In this document: positions 737 to 59,968 of the stretch, piece after piece | Layout of the letters: each line of letters opens with the position of its first letter | Position numbering within the stretch: the stretch's first letter is position 1 | DNA from: Curtobacterium pusillum | Lineage (GTDB): Bacteria; Actinomycetota; Actinomycetes; Actinomycetales; Microbacteriaceae | Assembly (NCBI GenBank): GCA_002025645.1 | Contig: CP018783.1 | Location: 3,596,001-3,660,000, forward strand | DNA: 64,000 nucleotides | Reading direction: 5' to 3' | Program-made: the position numbers and the translations under genes | The notes under the pieces: generated by a model | Database searches by the model: none | The model's input: only the letters and a program-made list of their open reading frames with translations | Told to the model about the DNA's origin: nothing

Positions 737-889
737 CTATTCGTCGCGGAGGAAGTCCGCGTACGTGGGCTCCGTGTGTTCACCCGTCAGCAAAGCCGGA
801 TCGTTGACCCGTCGTTCGACGTAGGCCGCGATGACCTCGGGTGGGGTGAGCACGTGGGCGACCCAGGACGGCACCTCGCTCTTCTTCAT
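737..889 (-). CDS. Small hypothetical protein (50 aa)
   Basis: An ATG at 889 is preceded by a very strong Shine-Dalgarno sequence (GGGAGGAGG on the minus strand, within about 891-901), which supports a real short gene. The 50-residue product starts MKKSEVPSWVAHVLTPPEVI and ends in acidic residues. It has no signal peptide, membrane segment or cysteine. I do not recognise a family. It lies 100 bases downstream of the LexA-box-controlled 107-aa gene on the same strand and could be co-transcribed, though it has its own ribosome site. Confidence 0.6.
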   Translation of the reverse strand: MKKSEVPSWVAHVLTPPEVIAAYVERRVNDPALLTGEHTEPTYADFLRDE

Positions 890-990: not shown

Positions 991-1314
991 TCAATGCGGT
1001 GCGTTCTCCGGACTGCGCCTGTCGATGTCGGCGCGGAGGGTGCGGTGCTTCACGGCCGACCGCCACACCCACGCGTTCGCCTGTTGCCCGAACTGCGCCC
1101 ACTCGACCATGACGGCGTCGCGGGTCCAGCTCTTCGCGAATGCCTTCACCCGGACGTGGAAGGTGGGGAACTGGATCCACGCCCACACCGGCACGGGGGT
1201 GACGGCGTGGCAGACGTCCGGCCCGCGGGCGTCCTCCGACAGGGAGTAGGCGCGCGGGCGTTCGACCTCCGGGTGTTCCGGGGGCTGCCACCGGTTCTCG
1301 CGACGCCGTCCCAC
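991..1314 (-). CDS. Hypothetical protein (107 aa) with LexA-box promoter
   Basis: I chose the GTG at 1314 because it sits directly downstream of a good promoter (TTGACG, 17-bp spacer, TCGAAT, then six bases). There is no Shine-Dalgarno sequence, so the transcript is probably leaderless. The product is soluble and rich in Trp and Arg, with a central block around PVWAWIQFPTFHVRVKAFAK followed by a second Trp-rich stretch (NAWVWRSAVKHR). No catalytic motif is obvious. A perfect LexA-type palindrome covers the promoter, so I infer DNA-damage induction. The function is unknown; the biased composition could suit nucleic-acid or protein contact, but that is a guess. Confidence 0.7.
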   Translation of the reverse strand: MGRRRENRWQPPEHPEVERPRAYSLSEDARGPDVCHAVTPVPVWAWIQFPTFHVRVKAFAKSWTRDAVMVEWAQFGQQANAWVWRSAVKHRTLRADIDRRSPENAPH

Positions 1315-1320
1315 GAGAGT

Positions 1321-1349
1321 ATTCGAACGTGTGTTCGAATCGGCGTCAA
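1321..1349 (-). promoter_or_regulatory. SOS promoter: LexA box over -35/-10
   Basis: Reading the minus strand, TTGACG (1344-1349) and TCGAAT (1321-1326) are 17 bp apart. TCGAACACACGTTCGA (1323-1338) fills the spacer and enters the -10. The 20-base segment 1321-1340 is an inverted repeat with 8-bp arms and four central bases. It matches the actinobacterial LexA consensus TCGAAC-N4-GTTCGA exactly, so LexA binding would occlude the promoter. Confidence 0.8.
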
Positions 1350-1430
1350 GTCGGCCGCACCGTTGGTGCGCCCACGTGACCGACGATCGGCGTGTCGCCG
1401 CGGGTCGCGCGTCGCGGCGGTTGCTGGGGC

Positions 1431-59081: not shown

Positions 59082-59155
59082 TCGAACGTGTGTTCGGTCT
59101 GGTTGTCCACAGGATGTCGGTGCTCGTTGACATCATCGAACACATGTTCGAATAT
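59082..59155 (+). promoter_or_regulatory. SOS promoter of the mutasome: two LexA boxes
   Basis: Box 1 TCGAACGTGTGTTCGG (59082-59097) has one mismatch to the consensus. Box 2 TCGAACACATGTTCGA (59136-59151) is perfect. TTGACA (59127-59132) and GAATAT (59150-59155) are 17 bp apart and straddle box 2, and six bases later comes the imuA' ATG, again a leaderless layout. Two boxes imply tight repression and strong damage response. Confidence 0.88.
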
Positions 59156-59161
59156 GAGGGC

Positions 59162-59968
59162 ATGCAGACGGCGGCGGCACTCCAGTCGTCCGGGGCTCCA
59201 CGGGAGTCGACCGGACGGTCCGGTGCTGCCCGGCCGGTGCGTCGCGTCGACCACCTCGGGGATGCCCGGGCGGCGCTCGAGCGCATCACCTCGTTGCGCT
59301 CGCGGGTCGCCGAGATGGAGTCCACGCGCGTCGACACCGAGGGGCTGCCGACCGCCGAGGCACTCGCGCCCCTGCTGCCGGGCGGGTCGATCCGGGTCGG
59401 GGGTGCCTACGCGGTGCACGAGTCGGTGCTCCTCGCGATGACGATGCTCCAGGCCGCCTCGGCCGCCGGCGCCTGGTGCGCGGTGGTGGGTGTGCCGTCC
59501 TTCGGGGTCGAAGCGGCAGCGGCCGCGGGGATCGACCTCGAACGGCTCGTGCTCGTGCCGGACCCGGGCGACCAGTGGCTCACCGTCACCGCCGCCCTGG
59601 CGGACGTGGCGCAGATCGTCCTCACCCGTCCGCTCGGTCGGGTCGTGCCGGGCGACGTCTCCCGGTTGTCGGCACGGCTGCGGCAGCGTGGCGGAGCACT
59701 GGTGGCGCTCGGGTCCTGGCCGGGGGCGGACGTCACGCTGCGGGTGACCCGGTCCGAGTGGAGCGGCATCGGGGACGGCCACGGCTTCCTGACCGAGCGA
59801 CGGGTCACGGTGTCGGCGTCCGGGCGCGCGGGGGCGGTCCGGCCGGTCGACGTCGACCTCCTCCTGCCCGCGGCGGACGGCACGGTGCGGGCAGCGGTCC
59901 CCGCCGCTGCTGCGGGCGCCGGCTCGGACGCCGGGCACGTGCTCCGTCCCGTGGCGGTGGCGTCGTGA
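59162..59968 (+). CDS. imuA: ImuA' (SOS mutasome RecA-like accessory protein)
   Basis: The 268-aa protein has an RecA-like but incomplete ATPase layout: LLPGGSIRVGGAYAVHESVLLAMTMLQAASAAGAWCAVVGVPSFG resembles a degenerate Walker region (no GKT), with LERLVLVPDPGDQWL and GDVSRLSARLRQRGGALVALG following. This is the actinobacterial ImuA' pattern. It is the first gene of the damage-induced imuA'-imuB-dnaE2 operon. ATG 59162 is favoured over an earlier ATG (59144) that lies within the LexA box. Confidence 0.88.
   Translation: MQTAAALQSSGAPRESTGRSGAARPVRRVDHLGDARAALERITSLRSRVAEMESTRVDTEGLPTAEALAPLLPGGSIRVGGAYAVHESVLLAMTMLQAASAAGAWCAVVGVPSFGVEAAAAAGIDLERLVLVPDPGDQWLTVTAALADVAQIVLTRPLGRVVPGDVSRLSARLRQRGGALVALGSWPGADVTLRVTRSEWSGIGDGHGFLTERRVTVSASGRAGAVRPVDVDLLLPAADGTVRAAVPAAAAGAGSDAGHVLRPVAVAS

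Follow-up and report, generated by a model that had tools for sequence, protein, structure and literature searches.

Does a perfect LexA box in front of a short gene without a recognisable product mark a new member of the SOS response, and what kind of protein would such a gene supply? The question is raised by a 107-aa coding sequence in the window, i.e., the whole stretch of 64,000 nucleotides that was analysed. The first-pass annotation had called this gene an orphan and a probable new SOS gene. The relevant features are as follows:

991..1314, minus strand: coding sequence with GTG start, 107 aa, stop at 991-993
1312..1314, minus strand: GTG start codon, six bases past the -10 element
1321..1326, minus strand: -10 element TCGAAT, from base reading and orthologue conservation
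1323..1338, minus strand: LexA-type box TCGAACACACGTTCGA with perfect palindromic arms, inside the -35/-10 interval and overlapping the -10 element
1344..1349, minus strand: -35 element TTGACG, from base reading and orthologue conservation
1389..1397, minus strand: conserved stretch CGACACGCC, 51-59 bases upstream of the LexA box
737..889, minus strand: 50-aa open reading frame downstream of the 107-aa gene on the same strand, from the orthologue loci of the genus
59127..59164, plus strand: comparison site, the imuA' promoter with LexA box at 59136-59151 and ATG at 59162

Base-level reading bore out the architecture first ascribed to the locus, namely a perfect LexA box, a 17-bp spacer between TTGACG and TCGAAT, and a product of 107 aa. 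The box TCGAACACACGTTCGA (0 mismatches, 1338-1323 on the minus strand) lies in the spacer and the -10 element, and the GTG begins eight bases past it. A generic sigma-70 scan of positions 650-1600 returned no promoter; TCGAAT is without the A required at position 2. The promoter is called here because the spacing of its -35 and -10 elements is conserved across the orthologue loci, with 17 bases between TTGAC and TCGAAT in 24/30 of them and 18 in 6/30. As the GTG sits six bases after the -10 element, the mRNA of the gene is probably leaderless. In the whole window, six box matches with up to three mismatches were found against 0.95 expected, and none of 100 shuffles reached six.

The box is rare in the genome, and the genes behind it are informative. 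Perfect TCGAACNNNNGTTCGA occurs at five sites in 4.54 Mb, whereas the reversed control pattern occurs at none. The other four sites precede recA (identified by Pfam RecA, with about 200 bases between the box and its ATG), imuA' (identified by NF058630), a radical-SAM gene and a gene whose product has 86 aa. The genome also encodes LexA. Directly before the first ATG of lexA stands CGAACATAGTTTCG, which is one arm base off; it gives weak support because the 330 bases read contain three further sites with one mismatch. The actinomycete LexA regulon genes recA and imuA'-imuB-dnaE2 have the same type of box in the same genome, but they are known repair genes, and the 107-aa product does not belong to any known repair protein. 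The likeness to the imuA' promoter noted in the first-pass annotation holds for TTGAC, the 17-base spacer and the six bases to the start, as imuA' has TTGACA at 59127-59132, 17 bases, GAATAT at 59150-59155, six bases, and ATG at 59162. It does not hold for the position of the box, which at imuA' stands two bases nearer to the -35 element. At the radical-SAM gene (L051, G000:C1:1113596-1113611), a candidate ATG lies eight bases past the perfect LexA box.

Orthologues aligning over at least 96 of the 107 residues, with 85-100% identity, were found in 32/36 genomes of the genus. Conservation of the box above orthologues had been put forward as a check, and it was observed throughout: the 16-base box is exact at all 30 orthologue loci returned, with GTG 8 or 9 bases on, and eight further orthologues (two from the genus and six from a family-wide profile search) all have perfect arms, so that both arms are kept in 38/38 orthologues read. 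Two of the six found by profile are 70-77% identical. Four genus genomes are without an orthologue; three of these have a relative of ~30% identity under a box, and at the two of five matches read in the fourth (G031) there was no exact box. The genus is probably Curtobacterium, since a 9.9-kb segment of the second contig of the genome had a Curtobacterium plasmid as its sole match (42% covered, 78% identity). The upstream flanks vary more than the box, except for a CGACACGCC-like stretch in which each base is kept in 23-27 of the 30 loci. This stretch is a possible second regulatory site. The first ten codons (1285-1314) are nearly frozen at synonymous positions, with a major-codon share of 1.00 compared to 0.71-0.87 downstream in 30 orthologues, as if selection acted on the DNA or on the mRNA start itself.

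Boxes are also enriched across more distant relatives of the protein. Among 248 distinct loci, the 200 bases upstream of the profile match or chosen start (these starts are not proven) contain exact GAACNNNNGTTC in 97, a one-mismatch version in 64 and neither in 87. Because near-copies, 28-30 genus orthologues among them, make up part of the 248 loci, representatives less than 70% identical were counted separately: of 129, exact GAACNNNNGTTC precedes 31, a one-mismatch version 35 and neither 63. Background windows of the same loci gave 3 exact (0.17%) and 111 one-mismatch sites (6.2%) in 1777, an inverted palindrome gave 2 and 37, respectively, in the 248 loci, and the box arms set at a spacing of 3, 5 or 6 were exact in 0/143. 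Three loci cut by contig ends (L143, L152, L159) were left out of the counts. The 13 plasmid copies read closely, out of 46 matching plasmid records, all have a box with 0-1 mismatch, five of them exact; 12 of these boxes precede the annotated start by 19-46 bases, and the remaining one falls 38 bases within the annotated gene, an indication that the annotated start of that gene is wrong. Any family-wide claim of LexA control meets a real limit here, since roughly half of the representatives lack a visible box. When the presence of the box was mapped on a tree of 128 rows, built from few columns and with many open forks, at least 34 changes were required, compared to 41.7 (sd 2.7) for shuffled labels, with 3-8 of 500 shuffles as low. 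LexA control therefore appears widespread, with mild clustering and frequent gain or loss.

The description of the locus as a probable new SOS gene is well supported by how rarely the box occurs, by which other genes carry it, by its conservation in all 38 orthologues and by the family-wide boxes. Judged from these sequence data, control of the 107-aa gene by LexA is very likely. In the SOS response, LexA cleavage driven by RecA relieves repression. By this logic, LexA seated on the box between the -35 and -10 elements would block polymerase, RecA-driven cleavage of LexA would free the promoter, and the freed promoter would yield a probably leaderless transcript of the 107-aa gene. It is highly probable that the gene is both LexA-repressed, hence inducible by DNA damage, and a member of an undescribed protein family.

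The word orphan, in contrast, must be withdrawn, since the gene has paralogues in its own genome and relatives in several actinomycete families. Five more relatives with 36-53% identity, two of them adjacent to each other, are encoded in the same genome; no exact box was found within 400 bases of any of the five. Profile searches found members in at least 70/299 genomes (34/85 genera) of the taxonomic family, at least 59/396 genomes (23/110 genera) of the order and at least 10/296 genomes of the class, of which nine belong to the same order and one is a weak match outside it. These genome counts are lower bounds because no search scored more than 12-17 candidates in any one genome. Named relatives, from 76 loci, belong to Herbiconiux, Agromyces, Leifsonia, Naasia, Microbacterium, Cryobacterium, Mycetocola, Oerskovia, Isoptericola, Cellulomonas and Arthrobacter.

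The product had been remarked to have no known motif; the protein (P0001) matched no family in Pfam, NCBIfam, PHROGs or PADLOC. For 46 members, the same four libraries returned scattered matches, with no model hit by more than two members, and the best of these was DUF7064 with E 0.0004 for a single member; PDB sequences gave no match to any of the 46. Among the literature matches listed, no title or opening of an abstract names the family; an earlier mention in a comparative actinobacterial LexA-regulon study is possible. By sequence comparison, the small-barrel family, as we call it after its predicted fold, is undescribed in the curated libraries searched. Its members have roughly 80-125 aa, and their N-terminus begins basic, with MGRRRxxRW or MGxN(R/K)RY. 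Net charge is near neutral (+5 for P0001, +1 for its first 32 residues, and a median of +1 for 65 members) and thus makes no charge-based case for nucleic-acid binding.

AlphaFold2, run on 46 aligned rows, gave a model with a mean pLDDT of 84.4 and a pTM of 0.68; an alignment-free model (mean pLDDT 53.8) was poor and was set aside. Blocks within residues 21-90 reach a pLDDT of 94-98, and both ends are unsure. Strands are predicted at 35-48, 53-63, 67-74, 77-84 and 88-90, and the predicted barrel covers about residues 35-90. The product is thus predicted, with confidence for the barrel itself, to be a single small Tudor/SH3-like beta barrel with a low-confidence N-terminal arm, although its matches to known folds are weak. 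Foldseek returned nothing at E 0.001 from the PDB. The top rows of VIA-align are Tudor domains, i.e., SGF29 (Z 6.4, rmsd 2.4 over 58 residues), TDRD3 (Z 6.3, rmsd 1.7 over 50 residues) and 53BP1 (Z 6.3, with rmsd as high as 6.2), and a Z under 8 may mean merely a common strand arrangement. Myosin SH3-like rows score similarly and stand, with PWWP and integrase C-terminal domains, among the lower rows. SGF29 and TDRD3 resemble the predicted strand arrangement of the model, but identity in these rows is 12-14%, no Foldseek E is significant for the Tudor/SH3-like barrels (SGF29, TDRD3, 53BP1, PWWP and the retroviral integrase C-terminal domain), and a fold in common would carry no functional information. 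Among viral models, the best match is a protein of Arthrobacter phage Seahorse (A0A3G3M4X2; E 1.3e-3, probability 1.00, 23% identity), which differs in that its alignment of 122 columns has an rmsd of 13.3. A protein of Arthrobacter phage ArV2 (V5RBD9) matches with E 0.065, probability 1.00, 20% identity and rmsd 1.3 over 64 columns. Both phage proteins are uncharacterised.

As to function, we tentatively favour a soluble protein with an accessory or adaptor role, one that would bind nucleic acid or a partner protein in damage tolerance or repair, ahead of a modulator from mobile elements, a checkpoint protein and a mutasome partner. Plasmids and prophage-like elements may, with similar reserve, keep LexA-boxed copies of their own because such an accessory function is of use to them. 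Taken as a whole, the explanation of a LexA-controlled gene from an undescribed barrel family with an accessory function seems to us on balance a probable one.

The first alternative, which we regard as possible and somewhat less so than the accessory role, is that this is an SOS gene of mobile elements, through which plasmids and prophages exploit or tune the damage response of the host, for instance by modulating LexA/RecA or host defence; the chromosomal copy of the genus would then be domesticated. The 46 plasmid records, with Arthrobacter foremost (15), speak for it, and at the sites of the 40 plasmid matches listed the annotation is hypothetical protein or absent. Plasmid backbone genes are recurrent neighbours: in 176 loci, which include near-copies and whose neighbour clusters were named by eye and from plasmid annotations, ParA was counted 23 times, glutaredoxin 10, an ArdC-like protein 8, SSB 7 and an SRAP-type protein 7. 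The distribution among genomes is patchy, and five of the seven matching viral contigs, with identifiers that we take to be those of isolate genomes, carry the family gene near the contig end, where by eye it stands after apparent lysis genes. On the other hand, the genus copy is kept in the 32 genomes at the high identity given above and has a conserved neighbour, and two family queries run by tblastn against 50,697 phage records gave no match. An operon partner common to the whole family was also sought and was absent among the 176 loci.

That the product is a checkpoint protein which, as a soluble barrel, would delay division or replication, by analogy with SulA, YneA, SosA and DivS, is a rather unlikely reading. 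These four are SOS checkpoint proteins, and inhibitors of this type are typically small, fast-varying and under LexA control. The product is likewise small and LexA-boxed, and the top Foldseek row from the PDB is ZapC, a partner of FtsZ. However, this match has an E of 0.34 and is not significant, so the link to cell division through ZapC was rejected; nor did P0001 match a Pfam or NCBIfam family.

It is less probable again that the product is a dedicated partner of the ImuA'-ImuB-DnaE2 mutasome, a possibility raised in the first-pass annotation. Apart from the promoter layout common to the 107-aa gene and imuA', it draws on co-occurrence. ImuA' scores above the cut-off in 212/299 genomes of the taxonomic family, including 69 of the 70 carriers of the small-barrel family compared to 143 of the 229 non-carriers. 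When the comparison is restricted to genomes of 2.5 Mb or more, 69/193 ImuA'-positive and 1/34 ImuA'-negative genomes carry the family (classes of ImuA' and rounded genome sizes were used); the Fisher P of 3e-5 ignores kinship and is too small because the genomes are related. Against this stand the 143 ImuA' genomes without a detected family member, with at most 17 candidates scored in each, the carrier G251, which is without ImuA', and the position of the 107-aa gene (991-1314) about 58 kb from imuA' (59162 onward), outside the mutasome operon and not beside its genes. The co-occurrence, confounded by phylogeny and incomplete search, is a lead only. A chance box, or the site of another regulator, is very improbable given the five perfect sites against none for the control, the shuffles, the spacing controls, the background windows, the nature of the other genes with a box, the conservation and the family-wide enrichment.

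The accessory binding protein is the reading we tentatively prefer, within a regulon of known type; what would be new here, as judged from sequence, is the product family and not a LexA regulon gene as such. Outside the model species, known repair genes are the main guide to SOS regulons. In the present case, the signature of the regulator itself points to a family that is absent from the curated libraries searched, and it yields a short list of testable genes in the damage response of actinomycetes, their plasmids and prophages. To begin with perfect boxes and then to seek common features is a route to more such genes.

A second candidate on this list is the gene for the 86-aa Trp-rich protein under a perfect LexA box (own copy G000:C1:2239480-2239737; loci L346-L375). 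It is present in 33/36 genus genomes and in 0/23 others, and its box is exact in 28/30 loci, with one mismatch in one further locus. The protein had no Pfam match. It is doubtful, about as much as the mutasome partnership, that Tudor-like SOS effectors moving among actinomycete chromosomes, plasmids and prophages act with this second boxed small protein to aid DnaE2-mutasome damage tolerance. Kinship of the 86-aa protein to the small-barrel family was not supported, at a profile probability of 1.8%. Its identification as DUF6504 was dropped, as Pfam gave nothing and the genome of the window has no match to PF20114; a literature search for the candidate name 'Rv2578c-like' found no paper.

DUF6504 (PF20114) resembles instead a neighbour of some family members. 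Directly downstream of the family gene, and overlapping it in some cases, a DUF6504-like gene below the Pfam cut-off follows in 8 of the 12 Arthrobacter-type loci read, some of them from one genome (L133, L134, L138, L162, L171, L225, L337, L338). Three of four such neighbours tested against PF20114 gave E 0.0023, 0.008 and 0.055, and one of these three scores better against SsgA. The neighbour was not supported as a distant family member, at a profile probability of 0.2% from an alignment that also included the 86-aa protein, nor were the two supported as mutual relatives, at 4.7%.

The 50-aa open reading frame downstream of the 107-aa gene (737-889) had no family match in the profile-library searches; it is present in all 16 genus loci inspected out of the 30, and at one of these it is divided between two frames. 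Cryobacterium copies of the small-barrel family (L173, L281, L288-L290, L303) lie within longer frames, of 150-250 aa, with a C-terminal extension; the one scanned (L173) had no Pfam match. At L033, L041-L045, L342 and L324, two diverged family members, paired by eye from shared motifs, stand in tandem or overlap, and these pairs suggest a possible two-subunit form.
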